Positions 2,230 to 18,038 of a stretch of DNA of 33,647 nt are shown here, in pieces. This DNA comes from Geobacter sp. (lineage in GTDB: Bacteria; Desulfobacterota; Desulfuromonadia; Geobacterales; DSM-12255). A program made the translations under genes and the position numbers. The notes below the pieces were generated by a model, which did not search any database, had not been told where the DNA came from, and saw only the letters and a program-made list of their open reading frames with translations. The stretch's first letter is position 1; each line of letters starts with the position of its first letter. The stretch covers positions 1 to 33,647 of the forward strand of contig VFJK01000028.1 in the NCBI GenBank assembly GCA_009886125.1, read 5' to 3'.

Positions 2230-4725
2230 ATGAAGCTGAACCTGTTCAAAAAATTCCTGATAGCGCTCTTTCTGATTGCACTCCTGCCACTTGTCCTTTC
2301 ATCAGCGATTCTGTTTCTGAATCTTCGAAACACCGGTACGCAACTTGCCGCAAAAATTTCCGACGCTACAGACCGTCAGGCCTCTGAAAGTCTTCAAAGC
2401 AGGGCGCGGCAGATTGCCGAGGATGTTGCCCAGTTTCTTGCCGAGACTGAAAACGATCTTCGCCTTGTTGCTGCTCTTCCCAAGGATAGCTCGACACTGA
2501 GCACTTTTTATGACAGCCGGAATCTGGAGATTTGGAGAAGGGCCGGCAGCGCAGAAAAACCTTCCGAAGAGCGAGTTACCATCCCCATATATGCCTCTCT
2601 GGAGCTTATCGATAAGAGCGGCCGGCAGCGTTTTGTTATAAAAGAGGGGAAAGAGCTCCCTGCTGAACAGCTCAAAAATGTATCCATTCCTTCAAACACC
2701 GAATTTCGAAGTGAAAACTATTTCGAAAAGACGGCAGCCTTAAAAAAAGGGGGAATTTATGTTTCCCACCTTACCGGTTTTCATGTTGCTAAAAAAGAGC
2801 AGCTCGGGAGTGCATCCGACTCTGAACATGCATTTGGAGGAAAGGAGTACCGGGGCGTTATCCGCTTTTCAACCCCGATCTACCGTACAGGCGGAACGTT
2901 TGACGGAGTGGTGGTCCTCTCTCTCGATCATCGTCACCTTATGGAGTTCAGCCAGCATGTCTTGCCGGGAAGCGTTGAAAAAACCGTCTTCCCCTCGTAC
3001 ATGAGCGGGAATTATGCCTTCATATTTGATGATGAAGGGTGGATCATCACCCATCCGAACTTCTGGGATATCCGCGGTTTTTATCCGGACGGTGCACCGG
3101 TGCCGCATTATAGCAGCAGTTCGTCAAAAGAGGATGTCGCGACAGGCCGGATTCCGTTCAATCTGGATTTTGCCGGATTCATTCATCCGAACTACCCTGT
3201 TGCCGCTCGTGCGGTCAGGGAGAGGAAGAGCGGTTACGTAGATACGACAAATGTCGGCGGCGCCAGGAAGGTTATGGCGTATGCCCCGATTCTTTACAAT
3301 TCGGGAGAGTATTCGCGCTACGGTATATTCGGTGGGGTCACCATCGGTTTCCAGACCGATCTCTTCCATGAACCGGCAAAAGCAGCGACAGCAATAATTC
3401 ATGAGCAGATGCGGGATCACCTGAAAAAGAGCGGCCTGATCCTTGCTTTGACAACTGCGCTTGCGCTGCTGGCAGCATGGAGGATCTCCCGCGGGATAAC
3501 CCGTCCCCTGGCGCTTCTTACTGAACAGGCACGGGCTCTGGCAGGCGGCACCGGAAGCAGCCGGGTTGAAATAAGCTCCGGTGATGAAGTCGGCGGGCTG
3601 GCGGCTGATTTCAACAGTATGGCAGCTGAGCTGGAGCGAAGAAACAGCCATCTGCTCGAAACACTGACGGAGCTTGACCGTTCAAGGCATGAGGTGACCG
3701 GGGAGAGAAACTTTATGGAGGGGGTTGTAAACAGTATCTCCAGCGCCATACTCCCCTTTTCCTGTAGCGGAGTTCTGATATCGATAAATACGAACGGGAG
3801 GGCGATCCTGGGAGAGGCGCCTGTAATCGGTGAGCACTACCGTGCGGTATTTGACAGATGGCCGGAACTGGTCGCGAGAATTGATGATACCGTGGCCGGA
3901 GTACGCTCTTTCGGCAGGAGTTCGTTTACCGCCGATGGCCGGTATTTTGATGTCGGAGTATTCCCGATAGGCAAGGATATGGAGCAGGGAATCACCGTAA
4001 CGATCAGGGATGAGACTGAAAAGGAGCGGATGCGCGAAGAGATGATCAGGATGGATCGGCTTGCTTCACTTGGGAAGCTCTCAGCCGGCATAGCGCACGA
4101 GATCAGGAACCCTCTTACCGGCGTTACACTTCTGCTTGATGACCTCCATGATCGTCCGGAGTTTGATCCGGAGAGCCGGGAGATGATGGGGAGAGCACTT
4201 CAGGAGATCGAACGGGTCGAGAAGCTTGTAAATGCCCTGCTGAGTTATGCATCGCCTCCACACACAGAGCTCAGGGAAGGAGAACTCAACAGGGTGATTG
4301 AAGAAACCCTGCTCTTTTTCCGGAAAGCCTGCGAAAAAACCGGAGTGTCACTTTTATCGACTCATGCGGATATCCCTCCATTTGTCTTTGACCAGGACAA
4401 AATCCGTCAGATGCTTTTGAATCTGCTCCGCAACTCTCTGATAGCAACGGGCAGCGGAGGGGTTATCTCTGTCACTGCCGGGATCGAAGATACTATGGTG
4501 GTCTTGACGGTAAGCGATACCGGTCAGGGGATTCCTGCAGATGATATCCCCAATGTTTTTGAGCCGTTTTTTACAAGGAGTCAGGGCGGGACCGGCCTGG
4601 GTCTCTCGATCACCCAACGGATTGTAGAGGAGCATCATGGAGTGATCTCGGTACAGAGCATAGAGGGTGAGGGGACGGTTTTTACGGTGAGACTCCCATT
4701 GCCACTCAGATCAGAGGATACATAA
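2230..4725 (+). CDS. Membrane-bound sensor histidine kinase (NtrB-like, with large extracytoplasmic sensor and HAMP)
   Basis: The 831-residue protein has an N-terminal transmembrane helix (about residues 8-28). A long extracytoplasmic sensor region (about 30-395), likely Cache-like in size and placement, follows. A second transmembrane helix lies at about 398-415, then a HAMP linker (RISRGITRPLALL onward), a PAS-like stretch (about 490-600) and the kinase core. The HisKA phospho-acceptor box is LGKLSAGIAHEIRNPLTG with His623. The HATPase domain shows the N box (LLNLLRNSL), G1 box (DTGQGIP), F box (FEPFF) and G2 box (GGTGLGLSI). Its TAA stop overlaps the next gene's start by one base (TAATG), so kinase and regulator are a cognate pair. 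The ligand is unknown; the downstream transporter suggests an amino acid or small carboxylate. The ribosome site before the chosen ATG is weak, but the start fits the first transmembrane helix. Confidence 0.93.
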   Translation: MKLNLFKKFLIALFLIALLPLVLSSAILFLNLRNTGTQLAAKISDATDRQASESLQSRARQIAEDVAQFLAETENDLRLVAALPKDSSTLSTFYDSRNLEIWRRAGSAEKPSEERVTIPIYASLELIDKSGRQRFVIKEGKELPAEQLKNVSIPSNTEFRSENYFEKTAALKKGGIYVSHLTGFHVAKKEQLGSASDSEHAFGGKEYRGVIRFSTPIYRTGGTFDGVVVLSLDHRHLMEFSQHVLPGSVEKTVFPSYMSGNYAFIFDDEGWIITHPNFWDIRGFYPDGAPVPHYSSSSSKEDVATGRIPFNLDFAGFIHPNYPVAARAVRERKSGYVDTTNVGGARKVMAYAPILYNSGEYSRYGIFGGVTIGFQTDLFHEPAKAATAIIHEQMRDHLKKSGLILALTTALALLAAWRISRGITRPLALLTEQARALAGGTGSSRVEISSGDEVGGLAADFNSMAAELERRNSHLLETLTELDRSRHEVTGERNFMEGVVNSISSAILPFSCSGVLISINTNGRAILGEAPVIGEHYRAVFDRWPELVARIDDTVAGVRSFGRSSFTADGRYFDVGVFPIGKDMEQGITVTIRDETEKERMREEMIRMDRLASLGKLSAGIAHEIRNPLTGVTLLLDDLHDRPEFDPESREMMGRALQEIERVEKLVNALLSYASPPHTELREGELNRVIEETLLFFRKACEKTGVSLLSTHADIPPFVFDQDKIRQMLLNLLRNSLIATGSGGVISVTAGIEDTMVVLTVSDTGQGIPADDIPNVFEPFFTRSQGGTGLGLSITQRIVEEHHGVISVQSIEGEGTVFTVRLPLPLRSEDT

Positions 4726-6101
4726 TGGAAAAGATACTGATAATCGATGACGAGGCTTTTATCCGTGAGAACGTGAACCGGGTCCTTCGCGATGATGGAT
4801 ATCAGGTGATCCCGGCACTGAACGGCAGCAGCGCTCTGGAACTGGTAGCCTCAGAAGAGATCGATCTGGCGCTTCTCGACCTTAATCTCGGCACAGAGAA
4901 CGGCATCGATGTCCTTAAGTCCATGAAAGAGATCGACCCGGATCTTCTTGTCATTGTCATTACCGGATACGGGTCGGTTGAGAGCGCCGTGGAGTCGCTC
5001 AAGCTGGGTGCATTCCACTATATGAAAAAACCTTTCAAGGCAGATGCATTGCGCCTTATCGTCAAGCTTGCCCTGCAGACGAACAGTCTGAAACGCGAAG
5101 TGCGTGCCATCAGGAAAGGGGAGCTGGAGTTTTTCGAGAAAGTCCCAATGGTCGGGGTCAGCAGCGCACTGAAGGAGATAATGCATCAGGCACGGGAGGT
5201 TGCCCGGCACTCTGATGCGACGGTTCTGATCACGGGTGAATCCGGAACAGGTAAGGAGCTGATCTCAAAGAGTATTCACCATCTGTCCGAACGGCGAGAG
5301 GCGCCTTTTATAGAGATAAACTGTGCTTCGATACCGGTCAATTTGCTAGAAAGCGAGCTTTTCGGGTATGAGAAAGGGGCATTTACCGATGCAGGGAGCC
5401 GGAAGCCGGGACTTTTCGAGACGGCGAACAAGGGGACTATCTTCCTTGACGAAGTCGGCGAGATGGAGCCGGCCATGCAGGCAAAACTTCTGCGGGTGCT
5501 GGAAAACCGCACGATAAGGCGGATCGGGGGGACAAAGAGCATCGAAGTCGATGTCAGGGTGATAGCTGCCACAAACCGGAATCTGAAAGAGGCAATACAG
5601 AGCGGGGCCTTCAGGGAGGATCTCTATTACCGGCTGAACGTGTTTCCGATCCATATACCTGCTTTACGGGAGCGGCGTGAGGACATACCGGTTCTGGCAA
5701 AATTCTTCCTTGAAATTTACAGCCGGAAGTTTTCACGGGCTTTTTCGATGATTGACTCCAGGTCTCTTGATATGCTGATCGGATATCGGTGGCCGGGCAA
5801 TATCCGTGAGCTGAAGAATGCGATAGAGAGGATCTGTATCATGCACTCCGGGCCGTCACTCCTTCCCGAGCACCTCCCGGTGGAGATGAAGATGTCTGAA
5901 GCAGAACTTCTGCGTTCGAACAAAATTGGGACAGCATTCGAACTCGGACTTGAAGAGGCAGTGAACCTCTTCGAAAAAGAGATTATCTCATCCGCCCTGC
6001 AACAGAGCTGCGGCAACGTGCTGCAGGCAGCTCAGTTGCTGAAAATACCCCGCGGGACCCTGCGTTACAAAATGTTGCGACACTCCATGTCTGAATCATA
6101 A
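4725..6101 (+). CDS. Sigma-54-dependent response regulator (NtrC family)
   Basis: The protein has 458 residues. The receiver domain (about 1-120) has the acidic pair D8/D9, phospho-acceptor Asp52 in LALLDLNLG, and conserved T80 and K102. The AAA+ domain (about 140-370) has Walker A GESGTGKE (171-178), a GAFTDA sigma-54 contact loop at 219-224, Walker B GTIFLDEVGE (237-246) and an R-finger region (REDLYYRLNVFPI). A Fis-type helix-turn-helix ends the protein (about 425-455, NVLQAAQLLKIPRGTLRYKM). The loop differs from the usual GAFTGA at the fifth residue. It should activate sigma-54 RNA polymerase when phosphorylated by the overlapping kinase. The closest candidate target is the downstream liv operon, which has a -24/-12 promoter and two upstream dyads. 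Confidence 0.95.
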   Translation: MEKILIIDDEAFIRENVNRVLRDDGYQVIPALNGSSALELVASEEIDLALLDLNLGTENGIDVLKSMKEIDPDLLVIVITGYGSVESAVESLKLGAFHYMKKPFKADALRLIVKLALQTNSLKREVRAIRKGELEFFEKVPMVGVSSALKEIMHQAREVARHSDATVLITGESGTGKELISKSIHHLSERREAPFIEINCASIPVNLLESELFGYEKGAFTDAGSRKPGLFETANKGTIFLDEVGEMEPAMQAKLLRVLENRTIRRIGGTKSIEVDVRVIAATNRNLKEAIQSGAFREDLYYRLNVFPIHIPALRERREDIPVLAKFFLEIYSRKFSRAFSMIDSRSLDMLIGYRWPGNIRELKNAIERICIMHSGPSLLPEHLPVEMKMSEAELLRSNKIGTAFELGLEEAVNLFEKEIISSALQQSCGNVLQAAQLLKIPRGTLRYKMLRHSMSES

Positions 6102-6129: not shown

Positions 6130-6169
6130 TGGCGAAAACTTGCCATCTTTAGATGGCTGATTCTCGCCA
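6130..6169 (+). promoter_or_regulatory. Tandem 16-bp dyads TGGC-N8-GCCA, candidate enhancer sites for the adjacent regulator
   Basis: Two dyads with identical outer halves lie side by side: 6130-6145 and 6154-6169, both TGGC-N8-GCCA, with centres 24 bp apart. Reversing the second aligns 12 of 16 bases with the first. They lie about 105 and 130 bp upstream of the expected livK transcription start, where NtrC-type activators normally bind. The same stretch can also fold into a nested hairpin (inner GCCATC-TTTA-GATGGC) followed by GTTTTA, so it may additionally or instead terminate the regulator transcript. Confidence 0.6.
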
Positions 6170-6240
6170 GTTTTACCCCGAGCTGCCTCCTGCCCGATAT
6201 TATTCTTATGAAAATCAGACCGTTACAAAAATTAAATTCA

Positions 6241-6256
6241 GGGCACACAGCTTGCA
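6241..6256 (+). promoter_or_regulatory. Sigma-54 (-24/-12) promoter of the liv operon
   Basis: The sequence GGGCAC-ACAGC-TTGCA matches the sigma-54 consensus TGGCAC-N5-TTGCA at all fixed positions except the first, with the required 12-base spacing between the GG and GC elements. Transcription would begin near 6266, giving a 5' leader of about 54 nt with an AGGAGG-like site (CGGAGG) before livK. It is immediately downstream of a sigma-54 activator gene, which strengthens the call. Confidence 0.75.
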
Positions 6257-6319
6257 AACATAAGCGAAGTCGATATAATCCTAGAATATTTATTTATCAT
6301 TACTAAACGGAGGTAAGTC

Positions 6320-7474
6320 ATGACGCGTAATCTTTTGGCACTTTTATTGGCGGCATCCTTGGCTGTTCCGGGGATGGCGAGCGCAGCACCGGTGAAAATC
6401 GGCTTCATCAACTCCATAACCGGCCCCGAGGCACCGATCGGCGAGAACCTGACAAACGGCGTAACGATGGCAATCGAGGACCTCAAAAAGAAAGGGGTCG
6501 AAGTGCAGCTTATGAAGGAAGATGATACCGGCAAGCCGCAGATTTCCATGAGCGCCATGGAAAAACTGGCCGGGCAGGGAGTAGCAGGAGTGGTTGGGCC
6601 TTATACCTCGGCCTGTGCCAATGCCGTCTCGAAGCTTGCAGAAAAGTACAAGGTTCCTCTTCTCGTACCGGCAGCTGCAAAGGAAGAGATTACCCGTCAG
6701 GGTCTCAAATATGTTTATCGCCTCAATGCCCCGGCCGACAAGTATGCCTCCTCACTTATTGATGCCGCACTTGTTATGGGTAAGCCAAAGACCATCGCTT
6801 TTATTTATGAAAATACCGATTTTGGCACATCTACTGTAAAAACCGCGAAAGAGTACATAGCCAAGAAAGGGATCAAAATGGTAGCCGACGAATCCTACTC
6901 CAAAGGCTCCCCTGATTACCGCTCTACCCTGAGCAAGATCAAGGGCCAGAATCCCGATCTGGTCTTCATGGTCTCCTATGTTGCCGACGCCATCCTCTTG
7001 ATGCGCCAGTCCCGTGAAATCGGTTTGCAGCCTCAGGCCTTCCTCGGCGGCGGCGCCGGCTTTACCACCGTACAGTTCGCCAAGGAAACCACTATCTCCA
7101 ACAACGTTTTTTCCACCACCCAGTGGACAGACGACGTGAGCTGGCCGGGCGCCAAGGACTTCTTCAACCGCTACAAAGCAAAGTTCGGCAAAGAGCCGAC
7201 CTATCACGCAGCCTGTGCTTATCAGGCAATGCTCATCATGGGCGAGACCGCCAGCAAAAACGGCGGTGATCGTGAAAAAACAAAAGCCGGACTGAAGAGC
7301 GGCTCATGGAAGGGGATCATGGGTGATACCAAGTTCGAGGACTATGACGGTTTTACTAATCAGAACAAACATCAGATGCTCGTTCTGCAGATTCAGGACG
7401 GCCAGTTCGAAACTGTTTTCCCGACCAATTTCGCGTCCAAGAAGCCGATCTTCCCGTTCCCGAAGTGGAAATAA
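6320..7474 (+). CDS. livK: ABC transporter periplasmic substrate-binding protein, LivK type
   Basis: The 384-residue protein starts with a clear Sec signal peptide (MTRNLLALLLAASLAVPGMASA, cleavage before APVKIGF). It then follows the type I periplasmic-binding fold of the Leu/Ile/Val family: VKIGFINSITGPEAPIGENLTNGV at the N-terminal strand and later VVGPYTSACANAV in the ligand-site region. It delivers substrate to LivHM. It is the first gene of livKHMGF and is separated from livH by 126 bp of repeat sequence. CGGAGGT precedes the ATG. Family members bind branched-chain amino acids, but related clusters handle urea, amides or aromatic acids, so the substrate is not certain. Confidence 0.92.
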   Translation: MTRNLLALLLAASLAVPGMASAAPVKIGFINSITGPEAPIGENLTNGVTMAIEDLKKKGVEVQLMKEDDTGKPQISMSAMEKLAGQGVAGVVGPYTSACANAVSKLAEKYKVPLLVPAAAKEEITRQGLKYVYRLNAPADKYASSLIDAALVMGKPKTIAFIYENTDFGTSTVKTAKEYIAKKGIKMVADESYSKGSPDYRSTLSKIKGQNPDLVFMVSYVADAILLMRQSREIGLQPQAFLGGGAGFTTVQFAKETTISNNVFSTTQWTDDVSWPGAKDFFNRYKAKFGKEPTYHAACAYQAMLIMGETASKNGGDREKTKAGLKSGSWKGIMGDTKFEDYDGFTNQNKHQMLVLQIQDGQFETVFPTNFASKKPIFPFPKWK

Positions 7475-7600: not shown

Positions 7601-8467
7601 ATGCTCGTTTTCATGCAATCCCTAATCAGCGGCATCCTCATCGGCGGCGTCTATGCCCTGATCGGGATCGGCCTGACCATCATCTTCGGTGTTATGCGTG
7701 TGATCAACTTTGCACACGGTGACATCCTGATGATAGGCATGTACATGACCTACAGCCTGTTTACCTTCTTCGGGATCGATCCCTTCGTCTCCATTGTCAT
7801 TACCATCCCTCTCATGTTTATGTTCGGCGCGTTCCTGCAGAAGGTCTTCATCAACCGGATGCAGGGTGCGCTGCCGCAGAACCAGATTCTGCTGACCATC
7901 GGCCTGGGGATGATCATGAGCAACACCATGATGCTGGCCTTCACCTCCGACTATAAAATACTGTCGACCGACTACTCTTCCAGCAGCATCAAACTTGCCG
8001 GAATCTCAATTTCGACACCTCTGGCCATTTCCTTTCTCATAACGGCTGCCATCACTGCCATGCTCTACTGGTTCCTGCTGAAAACCGATACCGGCCAGGC
8101 TATCAGAGCCACGGCGCAGGACCGGGAAGCGGCCCAGCTCATGGGGATCAATGTTAAATGGATGTCGATCCTGGCATTTGGTATGGGATCTGCTTTGGCA
8201 GGCACTGCCGGGGCGCTGATCTCGCCGACCTACTACATATTTCCGCAGATCGGCAGCACCTTTACCCTGAAGGCCTTTGTCATAACAGTGCTCGGAGGTA
8301 TGGGAAGCATCGTCGGTGCCACTATAGGCGGAGTGATCATCGGGATAGCCGAATCTGTCAGTGCCGTATACATCTCTTCAGGGTGGAAGGACGTTGTCGT
8401 CTTTGTCCTCTTCCTCCTCGTTCTGCTCTTCAAGCCGGCTGGCTTGATGGGCAAGTCAAGAATGTAG
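7601..8467 (+). CDS. livH: Branched-chain amino acid ABC transporter permease LivH
   Basis: This is a 288-residue, very hydrophobic inner-membrane permease with about eight transmembrane segments. It carries the LivH signature near the N-terminus (LISGILIGGVYALIGIGL and VMRVINFAHGD) and the cytoplasmic coupling loop (AIRATAQDREAAQLMGINV, about residues 167-185) that contacts the ATPases. Length is normal for the family. The start follows TTGGAGTTTTT. The next gene, livM, begins 10 nt after its stop. It pairs with LivM to form the translocation channel. Confidence 0.94.
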   Translation: MLVFMQSLISGILIGGVYALIGIGLTIIFGVMRVINFAHGDILMIGMYMTYSLFTFFGIDPFVSIVITIPLMFMFGAFLQKVFINRMQGALPQNQILLTIGLGMIMSNTMMLAFTSDYKILSTDYSSSSIKLAGISISTPLAISFLITAAITAMLYWFLLKTDTGQAIRATAQDREAAQLMGINVKWMSILAFGMGSALAGTAGALISPTYYIFPQIGSTFTLKAFVITVLGGMGSIVGATIGGVIIGIAESVSAVYISSGWKDVVVFVLFLLVLLFKPAGLMGKSRM

Positions 8468-8477
8468 GGGGACAACA

Positions 8478-9554
8478 ATGAAACCTGCTATTTCGATTAT
8501 TCGCAGTTCTGCCGGCGCCTCACCGGTTGCCATTGCTCTGGGGCTGGCAGTCCTGGCAGGACTTTTCCTTTTCCCTCAATTCGTCCAAAGCCCCTATGCG
8601 CTGCATATCATGATCCTGATTTTCCTCTCCGTCATAATGGGTGAGGCCTGGAACGTGATTGGCGGTTACACCGGTCAATATTCGGTAGGCCATGCCGCCT
8701 ATTTCGGCGCCGGGGCCTACACCACCATGATCCTGCTCCAGTACAAACAGATTAGCCCCTGGTATGGTGCATTGGCCGGCATCGCCGTATCTCTTGTGGT
8801 ATCGCTTATTATCGGTTCGATCTGCTTCCGGCTGCGGGGACCATACTTTGTTCTGGCCTCGATTGCAGTCGCCGAAATCATGCGACTCTCCGCCATGAAT
8901 CTCAAGGATCTCACAAATGGTGCGGAGGGGATACTGATTACCGAGATTCCTCACCTCAAGTTCGGCGATACTCTTATTACCGATTTTCTCACCAAAGTCC
9001 CATTTTATTACATCGGTCTGGTCATCGCCATCGTCACCATCCTGGTCACCTGGCTGATGCAGAACTCCAAACTCGGCTACTATTTCCAGGCCATCCGTGA
9101 AGATCAGGATGCAGCCCATTCGCTGGGCATCAGTTTGTCACTCTTCAAGAGCAGCGCCCTGGCCATTTCAGCGGTATTCACGTCGCTGGCCGGGAGTTTT
9201 TACGCCATCTACATCGGTTTTATCGATCCGCCGACAGTGCTGGCGCTGGACATCTCCGTGCAGATCGTTCTCATCTGCATTATAGGTGGCATCGGCACCA
9301 TCTGGGGGCCTGTGGTCGGCGCACTGGTACTGGTGCCACTCTCCGAGGCGCTTCGGAGCAACATGATCGCCCAGGGGATCTTCAAGATCGGACTTGCCTC
9401 CGAAGAGTCCGGGGTCGGCATATTTCTCAAAGAACATTTGTCTCACGCCCATGCGCTCATTTACGGCATTCTGGTCGTGGTGGTTATCCTCTTCATGCCG
9501 GACGGGGTCCTGGGTTGGGCCAAAAAGCTGGCAGCGAAAAAGGGGAAGGAGTAA
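8478..9554 (+). CDS. livM: Branched-chain amino acid ABC transporter permease LivM
   Basis: The 358-residue polytopic membrane protein is the second permease of the importer. LivM hallmarks are AWNVIGGYTGQYSVGHAAYF (about residues 57-76), the FVLASIAVAEIMRL helix, and the coupling loop AIREDQDAAHSLGI (about 210-223), followed by GGIGTIWGPVVGALVLVPL. It lies 10 nt after livH and 3 nt before livG, so it is in the same operon. Length is within the range for LivM proteins without a long N-terminal extension. It acts in the inner membrane with LivH. Confidence 0.94.
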   Translation: MKPAISIIRSSAGASPVAIALGLAVLAGLFLFPQFVQSPYALHIMILIFLSVIMGEAWNVIGGYTGQYSVGHAAYFGAGAYTTMILLQYKQISPWYGALAGIAVSLVVSLIIGSICFRLRGPYFVLASIAVAEIMRLSAMNLKDLTNGAEGILITEIPHLKFGDTLITDFLTKVPFYYIGLVIAIVTILVTWLMQNSKLGYYFQAIREDQDAAHSLGISLSLFKSSALAISAVFTSLAGSFYAIYIGFIDPPTVLALDISVQIVLICIIGGIGTIWGPVVGALVLVPLSEALRSNMIAQGIFKIGLASEESGVGIFLKEHLSHAHALIYGILVVVVILFMPDGVLGWAKKLAAKKGKE

Positions 9555-9557
9555 ATC

Positions 9558-10283
9558 ATGACACCGATCCTGGAAATCAAACAAGTCAGCAAATTCTTCG
9601 GCGGCCTGGCTGCCAATTCCGATGTTTCCTTTCACATGGACGAAGGGATGATCATGGGACTTATCGGTCCTAACGGAGCCGGCAAGACCACGCTTTTCAA
9701 CTGCATCACCGGCTATTATCCACCATCGAAAGGGGATGTTCTCTTCAAGGGGCAGAAGCTGAATGGACTTCAGCCGGACCGGGTCTGCAAGCTTGGCATG
9801 GTCCGGACCTGGCAGAAGGTGCGTCCTCTTACCAAGCTTTCAGTGTTGGACAATGTCATGGTCGGCGCACTCTGCCGCACCAACTCCCTTAAAGTGGCAC
9901 GGGAAATAGCTCACGAGCAGCTGAAGGTTGTTCGCCTCGATCATAAGGCCGACTTCATTGCCGGCGGGCTTCCAATAGGGGAACGGAAAAAACTGGAAGT
10001 CGCACGGGCGTTGGCGACAAAACCCGAACTGCTGCTCCTCGACGAGGTCATGGGCGGGCTTAATCCGGCAGAGAGCGACGAAATTATCCAGCTTATTCTG
10101 GATATCAAAAAAGCTGGAGCCATTACTCAGATGGTTATCGAGCACGATATGAAGGCCATCATGCGGATATCGGACCGGATAGTGGTCCTGAACTCAGGCG
10201 AAAAGCTTGCTGAAGGGTCGCCAGCTGAGATAGTCAGTAATCCGGAAGTGGTCAGGGCGTATCTGGGGGATTTCCATGCTTAA
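9558..10283 (+). CDS. livG: Branched-chain amino acid ABC transporter ATP-binding protein LivG
   Basis: This 241-residue ABC ATPase has Walker A GPNGAGKTT (about residues 37-45), a Q-loop region typical of LivG (MVRTWQKVRPL) and Walker B LLLLDEVMGGLNPAE. The H-loop lies in IEHDMKAIM, near the C-terminus, and the protein ends with the LivG tail SNPEVVRAYLG. The ABC signature reads LPIGERKKLEVARAL rather than LSGGQ-like; LivG proteins often diverge here. The gene overlaps livF by 8 bp. It energises the LivHM permease from the cytoplasmic side together with LivF. Confidence 0.95.
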   Translation: MTPILEIKQVSKFFGGLAANSDVSFHMDEGMIMGLIGPNGAGKTTLFNCITGYYPPSKGDVLFKGQKLNGLQPDRVCKLGMVRTWQKVRPLTKLSVLDNVMVGALCRTNSLKVAREIAHEQLKVVRLDHKADFIAGGLPIGERKKLEVARALATKPELLLLDEVMGGLNPAESDEIIQLILDIKKAGAITQMVIEHDMKAIMRISDRIVVLNSGEKLAEGSPAEIVSNPEVVRAYLGDFHA

Positions 10284-10980
10284 GGTCGATAAACTGAATT
10301 TCAGCTACGGTGATATGCAGGTCATATGGGATCTTGATCTGGTTGTGAACGCCGGGGAGATTGTCACCGTTGTCGGCGCCAACGGCGCCGGTAAATCAAC
10401 CACCCTGCGCAATATCTCCCGACTGGTTAAATGGCAGTCGGGGTCGATCAGCTTCAACGACGCCGATCTCGCAAAGTTCGAGCCCCACGAGGTGGTGGAG
10501 ATGGGGATCGTCCAGGTGCCGGAGGGACGCAAAATATTTCCCGAAATGACCGTGATCGAGAATCTCCGTATGGGCTCATTTATCAAGAGTGCCCGCCCGA
10601 AGCGGGACGAGAATATCGACAGGGTATTTACCATGTTTCCGCGCCTCAAAGAGCGGGAAAAACAGCTAGGTGGAACCATGTCTGGCGGCGAGCAGCAGAT
10701 GCTGGCCATAGCTCGCGGACTCATGACCAACCCCAAACTGATTCTGCTTGACGAACCTTCCCTCGGTCTGGCCCCACTTATGGTCAAGTTCATTTTCGAC
10801 ATTATTCAGGAGATCAACAGGCAGGGCGTGACGGTCTTGCTGGTTGAGCAGAACGTTTATCAGTCACTCCGTATAGCTCACCGGGCTTATGTTCTGGAGA
10901 CTGGCCGGGTGGTAATGACCGGAGTTGGGGAAGAGTTGCTAAACAACGACCATGTGAAGAAAGCGTTTTTAGGGATGTAA
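10276..10980 (+). CDS. livF: Branched-chain amino acid ABC transporter ATP-binding protein LivF
   Basis: This 234-residue ABC ATPase has Walker A GANGAGKST (about residues 34-42), a VPEGRKIFPEMTVIENL segment typical of LivF, signature MSGGEQQMLAIARGL, Walker B LILLDEPSLGLAP and an H-loop region LLVEQNVYQSL. It is the second ATPase of the importer. Its start overlaps the end of livG by 8 bp, indicating coupled translation. It is the last gene of the operon: a TAATAA double stop is followed by a 17-bp perfect inverted repeat (10991-11062). Confidence 0.95.
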   Translation: MLKVDKLNFSYGDMQVIWDLDLVVNAGEIVTVVGANGAGKSTTLRNISRLVKWQSGSISFNDADLAKFEPHEVVEMGIVQVPEGRKIFPEMTVIENLRMGSFIKSARPKRDENIDRVFTMFPRLKEREKQLGGTMSGGEQQMLAIARGLMTNPKLILLDEPSLGLAPLMVKFIFDIIQEINRQGVTVLLVEQNVYQSLRIAHRAYVLETGRVVMTGVGEELLNNDHVKKAFLGM

Positions 10981-11092: not shown

Positions 11093-11527
11093 ATGCTTAA
11101 CGTATCAGACTGGATGACACCTAACCCAATAACTATCGACGAAAACAGCTCTGTTATCGAAGCGATTCACCTGATGAAGGAGAAAGACATCCGCCGGTTG
11201 CCGGTGACTGGCAACGGCAAATTTTGCGGACTGATAACGGACAGGATGCTGAAAGAGTATACGCCGAGCAAGGCAACCTCGCTGGATACCTGGGAGGTTC
11301 ACTATATTCTTTCGAAGACACCGGTGAAGGAGGCCATGAATTCAAAGCCGTTCACGGTCCGTCCTGACACATGGCTGACGAATGCTGCCCAGTTGATTCA
11401 CGACAACAAACTGTACGGCCTCTGCGTTACGGATCAGGACGACAATCTTGTCGGAATACTGACCACAACTAACATTATGGAAGCGCTGATTACTATCTGC
11501 AATAGTCAGTCAAACTGCAATCAGTGA
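11093..11527 (+). CDS. CBS-pair domain protein
   Basis: The 144-residue protein consists of two CBS motifs. The first (about residues 5-55) contains VSDWMTPNPITID and DIRRLPV; the second (about 78-135) contains PVKEAMNSKPFTVRP and LVGILTTTNIM. Such stand-alone pairs bind adenine nucleotides and usually regulate a partner protein or transporter; the partner here is unknown. AGAGGAG precedes the ATG, and a strong terminator follows at 11550-11583, so it may be monocistronic. Its position between an ABC importer and a Na+/H+ antiporter is suggestive but does not prove a regulatory link to either. Confidence 0.9.
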   Translation: MLNVSDWMTPNPITIDENSSVIEAIHLMKEKDIRRLPVTGNGKFCGLITDRMLKEYTPSKATSLDTWEVHYILSKTPVKEAMNSKPFTVRPDTWLTNAAQLIHDNKLYGLCVTDQDDNLVGILTTTNIMEALITICNSQSNCNQ

Positions 11528-11669: not shown

Positions 11670-12956
11670 ATGCTCACCCTCACAGTTATAATTTTTGTTA
11701 TCGTTTATGCCGTGATCGTGCTGGAGCAACCGCTTAAAATTAACAAGTCTGCTTCGGCTCTTATCGGTGCCGGTCTCCTCTGGACGATTTATGCCCTCGC
11801 TTCGGGTGACCATGACCAAGTCAACAGACAACTCGGCGATTCTCTGACGGGAATCGCCCAGATTGTCTTCTTCCTCATTGGGGCCATGACCATTGTCGAG
11901 GTTGTGGATGCCCACAACGGTTTCGAAGTTATCACTTCACGCTTTAAAACCACCAGGCTGCCCACTCTCATGTGGCAGATCGGCTTCGTCACCTTCTTCC
12001 TCAGCGCAGTCCTGGACAACCTGACCACCACCATTGTCATGATCTCTCTTATCAAGAAGCTGCTTGACAAGCATGATGACAGGCTCTTTTTAGCTGGCAT
12101 CATCGTTATCTCCGCTAATGCCGGCGGTGCCTGGTCACCCATCGGCGACGTTACGACCACCATGCTCTGGATCGGCGGTCAGATCACGACCCTCGCCATC
12201 ATGAAAGGAGTTTTCCTTGCTTCCATGGTCAACATGGTCGTGCCGCTGGCAATTTCCAGTTACCTCCTGCGCGGAAGGGATGTGGTCAGCCCGGTCAAAA
12301 AGGCTGTACGTGGGCATCGGGATAAAGCCACTCCTTTTGAACAGAACCTGATGTTTGCCATGGGTCTCGGAATACTGCTCTGTGTGCCGATCTTCAAGAC
12401 CGTCACCCACCTCCCCCCGTTCATGGGAATTCTTTTCGGGTTGGGAATTCTCTGGCTGGTGGGTGAACTGCTGCACAGCAAGAAAGAAGACGAAGACAAG
12501 GAGCACCTGACCCTGGTTCGGGCATTGCGGCAGATCGACATGAGCTCGATAGTCTTTTTCATCGGCATCCTCCTGGCAGTCGCGAGCCTGGAGCATACCC
12601 ATATCCTGAGATCACTGGCCAGATGGCTTACTAACACTGTCGGCCGCGAGGATGTCATTGTCACCATAATCGGCCTGGCCAGCGCCATTGTTGACAACGT
12701 ACCACTGGTGGCCGCCTCCATGGGGATGTACAGCCTGTCTCAGTACCCGCCAGACAGCTTTCTCTGGGAATTCATGGCTTACTGCGCCGGCACCGGCGGT
12801 TCTATCCTCATTATCGGCTCTGCAGCTGGTGTCGCTGCAATGGGGTTGGAGAAGATTCACTTCTTCTGGTATGTCAAAAGGATCAGCGGACTGGCATTGA
12901 TCGGATATTTTGCGGGAATTTTTGTCTATATTCTGCAGTTCCGTCTGCTTAACTGA
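11670..12956 (+). CDS. nhaD: NhaD-type Na+/H+ antiporter
   Basis: The 428-residue polytopic membrane protein belongs to the NhaD/ArsB ion-transporter superfamily. Motifs that point to NhaD are FFLIGAMTIVEVVDAHNGF (about residues 69-87), FFLSAVLDNLTTTIVMISL (about 109-127), ANAGGAWSPIGDVTTTMLW, and, in the second half, ASAIVDNVPLVAASMGMY and GTGGSILIIGSAAG. The paired DNLTT/DNVPL elements in the two halves are the expected inverted-repeat ion-site segments. It exchanges cytoplasmic Na+ (or Li+) for protons. CCGGAG precedes the ATG. It stands alone between a terminator and an AT-rich 243-bp gap, in which I see no clear terminator. Confidence 0.92.
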   Translation: MLTLTVIIFVIVYAVIVLEQPLKINKSASALIGAGLLWTIYALASGDHDQVNRQLGDSLTGIAQIVFFLIGAMTIVEVVDAHNGFEVITSRFKTTRLPTLMWQIGFVTFFLSAVLDNLTTTIVMISLIKKLLDKHDDRLFLAGIIVISANAGGAWSPIGDVTTTMLWIGGQITTLAIMKGVFLASMVNMVVPLAISSYLLRGRDVVSPVKKAVRGHRDKATPFEQNLMFAMGLGILLCVPIFKTVTHLPPFMGILFGLGILWLVGELLHSKKEDEDKEHLTLVRALRQIDMSSIVFFIGILLAVASLEHTHILRSLARWLTNTVGREDVIVTIIGLASAIVDNVPLVAASMGMYSLSQYPPDSFLWEFMAYCAGTGGSILIIGSAAGVAAMGLEKIHFFWYVKRISGLALIGYFAGIFVYILQFRLLN

Positions 12957-13199
12957 TTTCTGCTACTCACAATTTCTGCATTACTCACACCTTTTTCAGG
13001 CCACGCCAAATTAAAATCTAAATATATATCCAGCTTTATAACTTGTTAAATCAATATGTTATGGTACAGATAAAAAATTAAATGAGATAATGTATCAGAA
13101 AAAGATGAAATAATTCTTTCTCGGTATATACTTCAAAAAAGTTTTTTAGATGCTTTGGAGTGTTCAGGATCGAAAAGCAGAAATCTCGGGAGTGCTCAT

Positions 13200-14516
13200 A
13201 TGAAACTTGAAACTAGGGCAGTGATATTGACAGTTTTTTTGTCATTCTGGATTTCCTCAGCTTCAGCGGCCCAGCTGTCTATTGACTCAAGCACTATCTT
13301 CAGAGTTGAACAGCGTGATCTCGGCTTCGGAGACAAGCAGAAATTGATGCCTGTCACCCAGTTTTTGGGGCTTGATGCTGAAAAACTTGCTGATGGCAAT
13401 CTCTCGCTTCATCTGTACGGGTGGGGCAGGGGGGATCTTGGTGACAAGAGTTACAATGATGATAAGGTTGACGGTACGTTGACCTACGGATACCTCAGGT
13501 ACCGCTTCAACAGCGCCAATGCTGATATCCGCGGCGGCCGGTTTTTCATAAACCAGGGGATAGCCAATGAGCAGCTCGATGGGGTCAACCTCCGGACCGA
13601 CCTTCCTGGCGGCTTTGGTGTATCAGCTTTCGGTGGAGCGGTCGTGCATAATAAAAACCTTTTTGGCGAAAGCAGCGACGGCAAAGGCGATTATCTGTAT
13701 GGAGGAAGATTCCACTATCGTTATGCACGCCTGCTCGAACTGGGACTCTCCGGAGTATATGAAGCTGATGCTCCTGTCCTTGTACACTATGCAAACGGCA
13801 GCCATAGAGCAGTCGGTCTGGACATCTGGTTACATCCCATGGCCGCTGTCGAGCTTATCGGTCACACGAGCTACAATACTGAAACAGCTGAAATTTCCGA
13901 ACACTCCTACCTCCTGAACTTTAAGGCTCTTCCCGGGCTGTTGCTCTCCGGTGAGTTTGACGAGCATCGCGACCGGGATTATCTTTACTCCTGGTCGATG
14001 TTTTCAGGTGCAGGGCTGAACCCGGCTGACAAATCCCGCTCAACCGGCGGCACTATCTCATATGCGCTGAACAGTAAGGCGATCCTCTCCACAGATTACA
14101 AACATTACGACCGGCAGTATGGCAGCGCTGACCGGTACGGCGGTGACCTCAAGCTCTCCTTCCTCGAAAACTCTTTGCGGAGCGGAATCGGTTATCACTA
14201 TCTGAATGCTGGGGCTACATTCGCTGTCAGCGGTAACCCTTCTGCGTCCTACCAGCAACTGCGCCTTTATTCACTCCATGACACAAAGGGTTACTTTGCG
14301 TCTGTCGATCTTCTCGGGTTTTTCTTCAAAGACAAGATATACGACACAGCTAGCGATCTTGAGGCTTCTCTTTCACTCGGGTATCATCTGACGACAGATC
14401 TGGCGATTTCCGGAGATGTGAGCTATGGAAGAAACCCCGAGTTCAGCAAGGAGATAAAAGGGCTGATACGTCTGACATACAATCCGGTCTTTTCAGGTAA
14501 AGGAGAGAAACGATGA
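13200..14516 (+). CDS. Outer-membrane beta-barrel (porin-like) protein of a porin-cytochrome conduit
   Basis: The start chosen is ATG 13200 (after CGGGAG), because it opens a clean signal peptide (MKLETRAVILTVFLSFWISSASA, then AQ). A TTG 45 bp upstream would add an unlikely hydrophilic prefix. The mature protein (about 415 residues) is dominated by alternating amphipathic strands rich in Tyr, Gly and Asp, such as LSLHLYGWGRGDLG, YLRYRF, YLYGGRFHYRYARL and GLIRLTYNPVF at the end, as expected for a barrel of about 16 strands or more. Its stop overlaps the pentaheme gene by 4 bp (ATGA), and a giant multiheme lipoprotein follows. This matches the known Geobacter barrel plus inner and outer cytochrome organisation (Pcc/Ext type), where the barrel sleeves the electron wire. 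The role is inferred from context and topology. Confidence 0.85.
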   Translation: MKLETRAVILTVFLSFWISSASAAQLSIDSSTIFRVEQRDLGFGDKQKLMPVTQFLGLDAEKLADGNLSLHLYGWGRGDLGDKSYNDDKVDGTLTYGYLRYRFNSANADIRGGRFFINQGIANEQLDGVNLRTDLPGGFGVSAFGGAVVHNKNLFGESSDGKGDYLYGGRFHYRYARLLELGLSGVYEADAPVLVHYANGSHRAVGLDIWLHPMAAVELIGHTSYNTETAEISEHSYLLNFKALPGLLLSGEFDEHRDRDYLYSWSMFSGAGLNPADKSRSTGGTISYALNSKAILSTDYKHYDRQYGSADRYGGDLKLSFLENSLRSGIGYHYLNAGATFAVSGNPSASYQQLRLYSLHDTKGYFASVDLLGFFFKDKIYDTASDLEASLSLGYHLTTDLAISGDVSYGRNPEFSKEIKGLIRLTYNPVFSGKGEKR

Positions 14517-14986
14517 GACTTCCACCGCTGCTTTGCGGAGCACTATTGTTGATCATGGGTACAATGCTGGCAGCCTGCGCAGGTATGCGGGCTCTTCCCG
14601 GGCTCCCTGAGTCCCACCCTGAAGCGCTTGCAGTCGGGCAGCAGGTAAGCTGCTCCGAGTGCCATGACGACAATCAGAAAGGGAGTCTCCGGCCGCAGGC
14701 ATCCTTCAGTCATACCCCTTCCTTCGTCAAGAACCACCGGCTGTATGCGGCTTCTGATGATCGGCTCTGCGCTGTCTGCCATAAAAGTTCATTCTGTAAT
14801 GATTGCCATGCCGGCAAAGTAGAAATAAAACCCTCGACAAAGTACGGGTATCGGCCTGACAGGGAGATGCCGCATCGCGGGAACTTCATGACGCTGCACA
14901 GGATTGAAGGCAAACTTGATCCGGCAAGCTGTTATCGCTGCCATGGCCGTGCCAATAACGAGCGCTGCATAGCCTGCCATCGTTAG
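14513..14986 (+). CDS. Pentaheme c-type cytochrome lipoprotein
   Basis: The 157-residue product begins with a lipoprotein signal ending L19-A20-A21-C22, followed by Ala rather than Asp, favouring the outer membrane. It has five CXXCH heme-binding motifs: CSECH (47-51), CAVCH (86-90), CNDCH (95-99), CYRCH (140-144) and CIACH (152-156). Extra histidines (for example in FSHTP, KNHR, MPHRG and TLHR) can serve as distal ligands, suggesting bis-His hemes. The gene overlaps the barrel gene (ATGA), so equal or coupled expression is likely. By analogy with Geobacter conduits it would hand electrons from the periplasm to the surface cytochrome through the barrel; that role is inferred. Confidence 0.92.
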   Translation: MRLPPLLCGALLLIMGTMLAACAGMRALPGLPESHPEALAVGQQVSCSECHDDNQKGSLRPQASFSHTPSFVKNHRLYAASDDRLCAVCHKSSFCNDCHAGKVEIKPSTKYGYRPDREMPHRGNFMTLHRIEGKLDPASCYRCHGRANNERCIACHR

Positions 14987-15035
14987 GAGCCGTTACGAAA
15001 TAAGTGCTACATCCCAAGTTATTTCGTTGCGGCTC
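14987..15035 (+). promoter_or_regulatory. Long intercistronic hairpin between the two cytochrome genes
   Basis: Arms 14987-15003 and 15019-15035 are complementary at 15 of 17 positions across a 15-nt loop. The left arm starts at the base after the pentaheme stop codon. No T tract follows the right arm, so it is not a standard terminator. It could stabilise the upstream mRNA, mark a processing site or partly attenuate the downstream gene. The 112-bp gap has no other obvious signal apart from the AGGAG ribosome site before 15099. Confidence 0.75.
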
Positions 15036-15098
15036 TAATGCCGTTCTTTCCACAGCATATGTAACAGTTATTTTATACCGACGGCTTAGGAGAATTAT

Positions 15099-18038
15099 AT
15101 GAGATTAGCCGCTATTCTGATCGTGCTGGGTGTTCTTTTCGGTTGCAGTAATGCCAATGACAAGGCTCCAAATCTGAATCCGGTTACCGGTAAGCACCCT
15201 GCAGGGTGGGCTGTTGCATCGACCGGCGGACTGCATCCTGCAGCATACATTGCAGGGCCAAGTGCTTGCCTTGAATGTCACGGCAGGAACATGGGGGGCG
15301 GCATCAGTGGGGTGAGCTGTTTCAGCAGCACTTATAAAGGCATCGGCTGCCACCCTGACGGCCCATCCGGTCATCCTCAGGGATGGTCCGCACCGATCAG
15401 ACACGGGTTATCTGCAAAAGCTGTTTTGCAGGGGCGGGACGGCTTTTCACACTGCACAGTCTGTCACGGCTCAGATTACGCCGGAGGTGTTGTCAACAAG
15501 TCGTGCCTTAACTCAGCCGGATGTCATGGAGTCGGGGTCATGGCCCCGCACTCACCAAAGCCGTGGAGATCTACGCTGGGAGGACGTTCACATGCCAGCA
15601 CTGATGCAAGTAATGCTGCAGCGTGTGCGCTCTGTCACACAGCAGGTGCGAATTCGGTCAGGCAGCCGTCAGTGACTCCCCCTGCAGGCACTGCTGTCGG
15701 ATGTTTTACTAATACGCTCTGTCATGGTGTTGAAGGGCATCAGCAGGGTTGGGCTCTACCTGCTGTCCATGGTGCCTCGGCGATTTCACTGGCAAGCGGT
15801 GACAAAGGGTTCAAATCGTGTACCTATTGCCATGGGGCACTCTATGATGGCGGTCTGGCAGAACAGAGCTGTCTGAATACGACCGGATGCCATACGGTTA
15901 ATGCGCCTCACCCTCCAAAACCGTGGCGTTCTGCTACAGGTTTCTCGCATACCAGATGTGATACCAGTAATGCAGAGCAGTGTGCCCTCTGTCATACTGG
16001 CGGTGCCAACTCAACGCTTCAGCCGGTTACAAATGCTCCTGCTGCGCTGACAGGCTGCTTCAACAATACCTTGTGCCATGGGGCACGGGGTCACGCTGCC
16101 GGTTGGCAGGCTCCAGCTGCCCACGGAGCGGAAGCAAAGAAGGCGCCGACCCCGTCAACAGGGTTTTCTTCTTGTCAGATCTGTCATGGCGCAGCATTTA
16201 TAAACGGTGCAGCAATAACCTGTTTCAAAGGTTTAGGTTGTCACGGATTCGGAGTGAACGCTCCTCACTCAGCCAAACCCTGGTCTTCATTAACCGGAGG
16301 AGCTTCTCATGCTAACACCGACTCAGCCAATGCCGGGACATGTGCAATCTGTCATACTGCCGGGGCAAATTCAACCATCAGGCCGCCGTTCCCGGCAACC
16401 AATACGATTGCGAACTGTTTCAACAATACCTTGTGTCATTTTCATCAAATACCTTTTGCACCTTCAGCAACCATACCGCCGACCCTTCATGGCGGGGAGG
16501 CAAAAAAGGATCTGACGATCTGCCAGGTGTGCCATGGGACTGCAGGAAGTACCGCATTTGACGGTGTGAGGCTTGCTGACGGCACGAGAACAATTGCCTG
16601 TTCATCATGCCATTTGAATGCAAAAGCACATCCGACAGACTGGCAGGGAGACGGCACCTATTCGCATCGTACTGCAGGCAACAAGGCTGCAGCCTGTTCA
16701 TTGTGTCATGATGTCCGGCAAGGAGCATCAGCCCCGCTTTCCACTTCACCAAGCTGTTACAGTACAACTTTTACCAACGCACTGGGGCAGACCAGGACAT
16801 GTCATGCCAATGGCCCGGGATCGGCTTCTCATACCGTCCCCTACAACAATCATAATGCGACTGCCCGCTCAAACTTCACCTACTGTCTCGGCTGTCACCA
16901 GATCGCGGCAAACAGTGCCTTGCCTCCCGGTTGTATGAACTGCCATCTCCAAAGCCCGCAGGCAAATCCGAACAATTGTGTCTCCTGTCACTCCAAACCG
17001 CCGAACGGCTCTGCGTATCCCAATTTGGCACGTTCGCACACTGCTCATGGTGCCATGAATGTCTCCGATCTCTGTGCTGAGTGTCACAGCGGACTCGGGC
17101 TTGGCACTGTCGATCATCTGAACAGGGCAAGGCTGCGGGCATCCTCTGTTCAGGCAAATCCAGTCGCTTTCGGCACACTCGCGAAAACAGGCGCTTTAAC
17201 GCCGAGTTACTCTGCTGCAGGAACATGTCTGAACACTTACTGCCATGGGGCTACACTCGTCGGCGGGAGCAACAAGTCACCTCAGTGGGGCCAGGTCAAC
17301 TATCTGCAAGGTTGCGGGACGTGCCATGGGTTCCCGCCGGCCAACGCTGCTCACGGGAGTGTAACGTCATCAACGCCTTGTGCAGGCTGTCACACGCATG
17401 TCAACCCGACCAATACAGGTTTCACTGTTCCGACGAAGCATATCAACGGGTCAATAGATGTTTCCGGGTCTGCACATGCGGCACCGTACTTTACTCATAA
17501 CACTGCTGCTGCGGCTACCTGTCTCAAGTCAGGCGGAGGTTGCCATAACACCGGCAACGGGACGGTCCTCTATCCGTTGGCAAAGGACAGTGTTACCGGT
17601 GCTCCGGACTGCAGGTCCTGCCATACCCTTGCAGACCCTCTGGCTGCAGGCAACGGTCTGGGAAACTGCAAATCATGTCATGGCACCGGAGGGACAGGAA
17701 CCCTTGCCGCACCTACAGGAACAACCTGGCCGAATATAAGGGGGAGCAACTCAAATGCTCGACACCCCAGTCATCAAGGCTCTGTCTGCGGTACCTGCCA
17801 CCCGGGGGTAGACAACACCGGCAGGTCAACTACCGGTGCAGCAGGTTCCGGCGCAGGAGTGAATCACGGCCCGAATAAAACCAGGCTCTCGGCTACGACT
17901 CAAACCAACGTGACTCAGACGGTAACCGGAATTGTCCCTAACGCTGCAAGGGGCACCGGCTCGACATGTACTCATGGCAGTATCCCGAGCACGTCATGCC
18001 ATGGAGGCCCGGGAACCAGGACCTGGACAGCTCCATAA
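15099..18038 (+). CDS. Giant multiheme c-type cytochrome, surface lipoprotein (19 CXXCH plus 11 longer C-Xn-CH motifs)
   Basis: This 979-residue protein has a lipoprotein signal (L13-F14-G15-C16, then Ser-Asn). I count 19 CXXCH motifs beginning with CLECH at 57. There are also 11 spaced variants: six CX5CH (for example CLNSAGCH, CFNNTLCH), one each of CX4CH, CX6CH and CX14CH, and two CX9CH. The N-terminal half is three to four related modules in which a CXXCHG is followed by a CX5CH, the anchor APHxxKPW, then CALCHTxGANS and another CX5CH. Around residues 710-750, CLNTYCH plus GCGTCHGFPP matches the Geobacter CxxxxCH...CXXCH motif domain (TIGR01904 type). With the barrel and pentaheme genes it probably forms an outer-membrane electron conduit with this protein outside. 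The heme total is uncertain because the longer motifs are unproven. Confidence 0.93.
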   Translation: MRLAAILIVLGVLFGCSNANDKAPNLNPVTGKHPAGWAVASTGGLHPAAYIAGPSACLECHGRNMGGGISGVSCFSSTYKGIGCHPDGPSGHPQGWSAPIRHGLSAKAVLQGRDGFSHCTVCHGSDYAGGVVNKSCLNSAGCHGVGVMAPHSPKPWRSTLGGRSHASTDASNAAACALCHTAGANSVRQPSVTPPAGTAVGCFTNTLCHGVEGHQQGWALPAVHGASAISLASGDKGFKSCTYCHGALYDGGLAEQSCLNTTGCHTVNAPHPPKPWRSATGFSHTRCDTSNAEQCALCHTGGANSTLQPVTNAPAALTGCFNNTLCHGARGHAAGWQAPAAHGAEAKKAPTPSTGFSSCQICHGAAFINGAAITCFKGLGCHGFGVNAPHSAKPWSSLTGGASHANTDSANAGTCAICHTAGANSTIRPPFPATNTIANCFNNTLCHFHQIPFAPSATIPPTLHGGEAKKDLTICQVCHGTAGSTAFDGVRLADGTRTIACSSCHLNAKAHPTDWQGDGTYSHRTAGNKAAACSLCHDVRQGASAPLSTSPSCYSTTFTNALGQTRTCHANGPGSASHTVPYNNHNATARSNFTYCLGCHQIAANSALPPGCMNCHLQSPQANPNNCVSCHSKPPNGSAYPNLARSHTAHGAMNVSDLCAECHSGLGLGTVDHLNRARLRASSVQANPVAFGTLAKTGALTPSYSAAGTCLNTYCHGATLVGGSNKSPQWGQVNYLQGCGTCHGFPPANAAHGSVTSSTPCAGCHTHVNPTNTGFTVPTKHINGSIDVSGSAHAAPYFTHNTAAAATCLKSGGGCHNTGNGTVLYPLAKDSVTGAPDCRSCHTLADPLAAGNGLGNCKSCHGTGGTGTLAAPTGTTWPNIRGSNSNARHPSHQGSVCGTCHPGVDNTGRSTTGAAGSGAGVNHGPNKTRLSATTQTNVTQTVTGIVPNAARGTGSTCTHGSIPSTSCHGGPGTRTWTAP

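Follow-up and report, generated by a model that had tools for sequence, protein, structure and literature searches.

Comparison of sequences within the order Geobacterales points to a single regulatory cassette that would drive interchangeable transporters: usually the TRAP importer dctPQM, sometimes dctA and, in the Geobacter sp. genome considered here, a LIV/HAAT-class ABC importer. We read this locus with good confidence as a DctBD-like sigma-54 switch for organic-acid uptake, in which the ABC importer replaces the TRAP transporter; for the predicted sigma-54 circuit alone, our confidence is very high.

Organization of the locus

The window (the whole stretch of DNA analysed, 33,647 nucleotides) encodes on its forward strand a membrane sensor histidine kinase (2230-4725), with periplasmic dCache, HAMP, HisKA and HATPase_c domains assigned by Pfam, and an NtrC/AtoC/DctD-type response regulator (4725-6101), identified by Pfam and NCBIfam and composed of a receiver, a sigma-54 AAA+ module and a Fis-type helix-turn-helix (HTH). 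As noted in a preliminary description of this DNA, the two genes overlap: their open reading frames share one base. The domains of the regulator (PF00072, PF00158 and PF02954) are those of an NtrC-type enhancer-binding protein, its AAA+ loop reading GAFTDA instead of GAFTGA; by NCBIfam it shows general family similarity, AtoC giving the best score, below cut-off.

A gap of 218 bp (from the regulator's end at 6101 to the livK start at 6320), containing the dyads and the -24/-12 element discussed below, leads to livK (6320-7474, forward strand). Its product is a LivK-type periplasmic binding protein of Pfam family Peripla_BP_6, devoid of the amino-group-binding Glu226 of LivJ/LivK. The genes livH, livM, livG and livF (7601-10980, same strand) follow and encode the permeases and ATPases of a HAAT-type ABC importer; livH was assigned through a Pfam match, livM, livG and livF through NCBIfam matches under the LIV family cut-offs, and their synteny is kept in relatives. 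A Peripla_BP_6 binding protein, two permeases and two ATPases thus share a single gene cluster, as in the HAAT class. The CBS-domain protein encoded next (11093-11527, forward strand) lies downstream of liv in most relatives too.

Farther downstream of liv stands an NhaD-type Na+/H+ antiporter (11670-12956; NCBIfam NF038006 above cut-off, TIGR00775 below), whose homologs also occur near several TRAP loci; it would make sense beside a sodium-driven importer. A 453-aa protein (13155-14516) resembles an outer-membrane barrel, with no match in Pfam or NCBIfam. Its homologs are close to liv or TRAP genes at three loci (L031, L034, L035), and at another (L033) a dyad pair lies upstream of the homolog, with no recognisable -24/-12 element there. 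Two genes encoding multihaem cytochromes c of 157 and 979 aa (14513-18038) come immediately after the barrel-like protein and possibly form an extracellular electron-transfer cluster.

Tandem dyads, IHF-type site and promoters

The two TGGC-N8-GCCA dyads reported earlier are present as described: TGGCGAAAACTTGCCA at 6130-6145 and TGGCTGATTCTCGCCA at 6154-6169, both exact, conserved and without strand, their centres 24 bp apart. They are the only exact matches in the window, and their number alone is weak evidence, since 18 of 100 shuffles of the window also reach two or more anywhere. The tandem pair, however, is unique in the 3.57-Mb genome, and it is the arrangement and its conservation that lift both the dyads and the -24/-12 element above chance.

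The -24/-12 element of the preliminary description, GGGCACACAGCTTGCA (6241-6256, forward strand), bears scrutiny: it has sigma-54 spacing and the GG-N10-GC signature, with one mismatch to TGGCAC-N5-TTGCW, where G replaces the first T. Such matches are weak evidence taken alone (three in the window, for 1.46 expected). The dyads at 6130-6169 lie where paired activator sites are expected, about 80-150 bp upstream of a sigma-54 promoter, and by the sigma-54 convention transcription of livK would start at about 6267.

Two elements had been missed earlier. The first is an IHF-type site, AATCAGACCGTTA (an exact WATCARNNNNTTR), at 6213-6225 on the forward strand, between enhancer and promoter and 28 bp upstream of the -24 hexamer. 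An IHF site in that position is common, though not obligatory, at sigma-54 promoters. The second is a sigma-70-like promoter, TTGCAA-N16-TATAAT (6252-6279, forward strand), which overlaps the -12 element, matches the consensus at 10 of 12 positions and has a predicted start at about 6286.

Conservation of the cassette in relatives

The search of 58 relatives returned regulator orthologs at 60-83% identity, along with a large paralog set at 49% or less. Most orthologs have this dyad pair downstream, directly or one to three genes away, and a -24/-12 element after it. Pair and element lie within set distances in 52 of 76 regions upstream of livK, dctP or dctA orthologs, which is not an unbiased rate as the regions include loci L175-L192, chosen for having the pair; the combination is found in 0 of 15,200 dinucleotide shuffles. 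Conservation of dyads and promoter in orthologous loci, the test put forward in the preliminary description, thus gave a positive answer.

Across these 52 cassettes the dyad consensus is approximately TGGCNRAWWTYNGCCA, and the centre-to-centre spacing is 21-24 bp without exception. The gaps between dyads and promoter fall into three clusters (71-75, 81-87 and 96-98 bp) about one helical turn apart; such phasing is what would be expected of an activator that has to face the polymerase. In the promoter, the GC at -12 is kept in 52/52 cassettes and the GG at -24 in 51/52, the TGC positions being conserved as well; G as the first base of the -24 element is found in the promoter of the window only. 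IHF-type sites are enriched: exact ones occur in 11 of 52 cassettes (0.5 expected) and those with at most one mismatch in 29 of 52 (8.3 expected). On the plus strand, 25 of 27 begin 27-29 bp upstream of the -24 hexamer.

These comparisons bear on the overlapping sigma-70-like promoter, from which livK could be mainly transcribed, the sigma-54 element being secondary or decaying in this genome. The exact TATAAT and the ten consensus matches speak for such a start, as does the loss of the first T from the -24 element of the window. Against it, dyads, IHF site, GG and TGC positions and the spacing of -24 and -12 are all intact here and conserved in the lineage. None of the other cassettes has an exact TATAAT in the corresponding position, and chance alone would yield 1.3 promoter-like sites over the scanned region. 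We consider it quite improbable as the main origin of livK transcripts; the element remains a rival or second start.

Co-occurrence of dyad pair and regulator

A count over 112 genomes of the order, free of the selection that affects L175-L192, gave 62 genomes with both regulator and exact pair, 12 with the regulator only, 3 with the pair only and 35 with neither (Fisher p = 2e-15, a value inflated by shared ancestry, since members of the same order are not independent samples; many of these genomes are drafts). Among the 12 regulator-only genomes, four have a pair with one mismatch (G005, G020, G077, G114) and in two the regulator lies where a contig ends (G009, G052). As to the pair-only genomes, a partial regulator is present at the edge of a contig in G096, and the match in G073 was dismissed as fortuitous, judging from its sequence alone. 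A refined version of the pair is found in 61 of 194 genomes of the class, all 61 within the order, and in none of the 88 sampled genomes of the class outside it; the reversed pattern, used as a control, has no match in the 194 genomes. Conservation, shuffles and reversed-pattern controls together lead us to reject a chance origin of the pair. Exact pairs at two further loci (L193, L194) were set aside as chance matches: they overlap predicted open reading frames, with no such promoter or transporter downstream.

There is generally one pair per genome, and it follows the presence of the regulator, not that of a given transporter gene. Where transporter and regulator are widely separated, the pair stays with the former: this holds for remote liv (G017, G024, G069), remote TRAP (G035, G060) and remote dctA (G017, G035, G069). 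The exact pair is missing from all 18 liv genomes in which no regulator was detected. Of 17 liv regions read in regulator-negative genomes, 11 have neither pair nor -24/-12 element; one has a pair with one mismatch (G094), three have partial pairs (G016, G086, G088) and two a -24/-12-like site with no pair (G007, G010). Conversely, two regulator-positive liv genomes, G066 (L213) and G067 (L218), have no dyad pair that could be recognised ahead of livK. Missing contigs or loss possibly account for these exceptions, the pairless loci and the partial dyads without regulator alike.

One might still suppose that some other protein binds the dyads, or that they are a fortuitous or structural repeat, and that the adjacent regulator acts elsewhere. 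A palindrome as simple as TGGC-N8-GCCA may well turn up twice in a window of this size; but the pair tracks the regulator, usually as one per genome, and the recognition helix of its HTH, IPRGTLRYKM, is nearly invariant in 47 orthologs. A near-invariant helix accompanied by a near-invariant half-site counts against service to another protein, and we give this alternative very little credence. Altogether, the regulator-linked sigma-54 cassette proposed initially is strongly supported: its elements and spacing are conserved, it tracks the regulator, and it is mostly absent from liv genes that lack one.

Exchange of transporters behind the cassette

The initial reading as a liv operon has to be revised after the comparison: the cassette is not confined to liv, and relatives use it for TRAP dctPQM and for dctA. 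Most relatives have TRAP dctP behind it, about a dozen have liv, and three genomes have dctA (DctP and DctM identified by NCBIfam, DctA by NCBIfam above cut-off); for the TRAP binding protein of relatives, the nearest solved structures are C4-dicarboxylate-binding DctP proteins. Orthologs of livK and dctP are nearly exclusive of each other: of 112 genomes, one has both, 32 have livK only, 58 have dctP only and 21 have neither (p = 7e-13, again overstated by common descent). On a regulator tree with 42 labelled tips, built by a quick method without bootstrap, the liv/TRAP state changes at least eight times, and one such change separates the genome of the window from its congener G002. This alternation is the pattern of functional equivalents, which would suggest equal cargo.

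The sole genome with both genes (G083) carries liv and TRAP dctP in tandem after the regulator (L215), possibly an intermediate of the exchange. At five loci (L175, L177, L181, L183, L195) a UbiD-family gene, assigned from a Pfam match of the L175 copy, is oriented divergently from the transporter. The slot beside it holds liv in some genomes and TRAP in G068, which suggests that the transporters were exchanged in place.

The dCache domain of the kinase sensor is conserved in 22 orthologs irrespective of transporter type. In an AlphaFold model of kinase residues 1-420 (pLDDT 83.8), the fold matches dCache sensors in general; DctB is absent among the matches listed, which does not exclude a resemblance to it. 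By sequence, the sensor has no match among solved structures, nor among plasmid-borne sensors, a collection that includes those of S. meliloti pSymB, which encodes DctB.

The LivK pocket and the probable cargo

In LIV-binding proteins, it is Glu226 that binds the ligand's amino group. When the LivK family is aligned with E. coli LivJ and LivK, Ser79 and Tyr202 are kept in all members compared; Glu226 is replaced by Gly or Ala in 32 of 32, and in all of them Thr102 has become Ala or Ser, and Asp121 Ala or Thr. The LIV-I amino-acid pocket (Ser79, Thr102, Glu226) is therefore not preserved in this family. The AlphaFold model of LivK (pLDDT 84.4) has as its nearest structure SAR11_0655, solved with L-pyroglutamate, for which our search of the open-access literature returned no paper; amino-acid and aromatic-acid binders come close behind. 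Judging from alignment and model, the pocket argues against branched-chain amino acids and would fit a carboxylate without a free amino group, the identity of which it does not name.

Because the cassette is shared with dctPQM and dctA, and LivK lacks the amino-group residues, we read the cargo as a C4-dicarboxylate or related organic acid, which the equivalence of the transporters makes probable. The main alternative keeps the same sigma-54 circuit and has the importer carry amino acids, branched-chain or acidic, with the kinase sensing an amino acid, in line with the liv naming of the preliminary description. It draws on the HAAT class of these proteins, on the many amino-acid binders among the nearest solved relatives of LivK (E. 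coli LivJ and LivK included), on the frequent binding of amino acids by dCache domains and on the control of an amino-acid ABC importer by AauR and RpoN in Pseudomonas (PMC7962211). It has to contend with the replacement of Glu226, Thr102 and Asp121 in every LivK-family member compared, with DctP-type and DctA transporters as the equivalents on the same cassette, and with the ligand of the top structural match, L-pyroglutamate, which has no free amino group. We regard amino-acid transport as rather unlikely. The proposal that the regulator turns on livKHMGF is thus strongly supported in its regulatory half, while "liv" in the sense of a branched-chain amino acid importer probably needs revision; the contrast once drawn with the textbook Lrp arrangement is beside the point, a branched-chain cargo being unlikely.

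Proposed mechanism and significance

In the pathway that we infer for organic-acid uptake, from ligand and regulator-DNA binding to sigma-54 dependence and cargo, the dCache sensor of the membrane kinase would detect an external carboxylate, and the kinase, as is usual in its family, would phosphorylate the partner regulator. The Fis-type HTH of the latter would bind both TGGC-N8-GCCA dyads, IHF, at 6213-6225, would bend the DNA, and the AAA+ ring would act on sigma-54 RNA polymerase at 6241-6256, starting livKHMGF near 6267.

A more specific proposal is offered tentatively, with a slightly less than even chance of holding: a liv-type ABC importer for C4-dicarboxylates that has been repeatedly swapped with TRAP under an unchanged sigma-54 cassette, so that the energy source (ATP or ion gradient) is exchanged and the regulation kept. 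Annotation of the liv-labelled genes behind the cassette as importers of branched-chain amino acids is probably wrong. If these readings hold, predictions of what Geobacter-like bacteria take up would be corrected, and the locus would clearly exemplify non-orthologous replacement with regulation conserved. The reassigned cargo of the importer is the most testable of the new claims.

Comparison with known systems

Control of dctA and dctPQM by DctB/DctD and sigma-54 is known in rhizobia and Pseudomonas. The present locus resembles that system in its kinase with a periplasmic Cache-type sensor, its NtrC-type regulator, its tandem activator sites and its sigma-54 promoter, and in having dctA and dctPQM as predicted targets in relatives. 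It departs from it in the LIV-type ABC importer that is the target in this genome, in a regulator nearer AtoC by family score and a sensor with no plasmid-borne sequence match, and in the dyad TGGCNRNNNNYNGCCA pair, which is specific to the order in the genomes sampled. With E. coli LIV-I (livKHMGF, livJ), the locus shares the gene set and the fold of the binding protein, as well as its permeases and ATPases; it differs in a LivK without the amino-group-binding residues and in its regulation by a sigma-54 cassette.

In the open-access literature searched, we found no description of this cassette, of a liv-type dicarboxylate importer or of a dct regulon that includes an importer of the liv type; related arrangements are on record. 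In Pseudomonas, AauR-RpoN controls the glutamate/aspartate ABC importer aatJQMP (PMC7962211), likewise a dedicated sigma-54 enhancer-binding protein over an ABC importer; that importer is of another ABC class, and the text consulted describes no TRAP or DctA exchange. In G. sulfurreducens, dcuB is RpoN-dependent (PMC2725144), and attempts to delete rpoN in that species were unsuccessful (PMC4641369). The Desulfovibrio DVU2827 sigma-54 regulon includes C4-dicarboxylate transporter genes, whose place an MFS transporter takes in some species (PMC4641369): there too transporters are exchanged under an enhancer-binding protein, although the regulator and targets, among them a pyruvate formate-lyase operon, are others. 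The wiring of kinase, enhancer-binding protein, tandem dyads, IHF and sigma-54 is classical; what is new is the evidence that, within a single bacterial order, one fixed cassette is joined to three or more unrelated classes of transporter.
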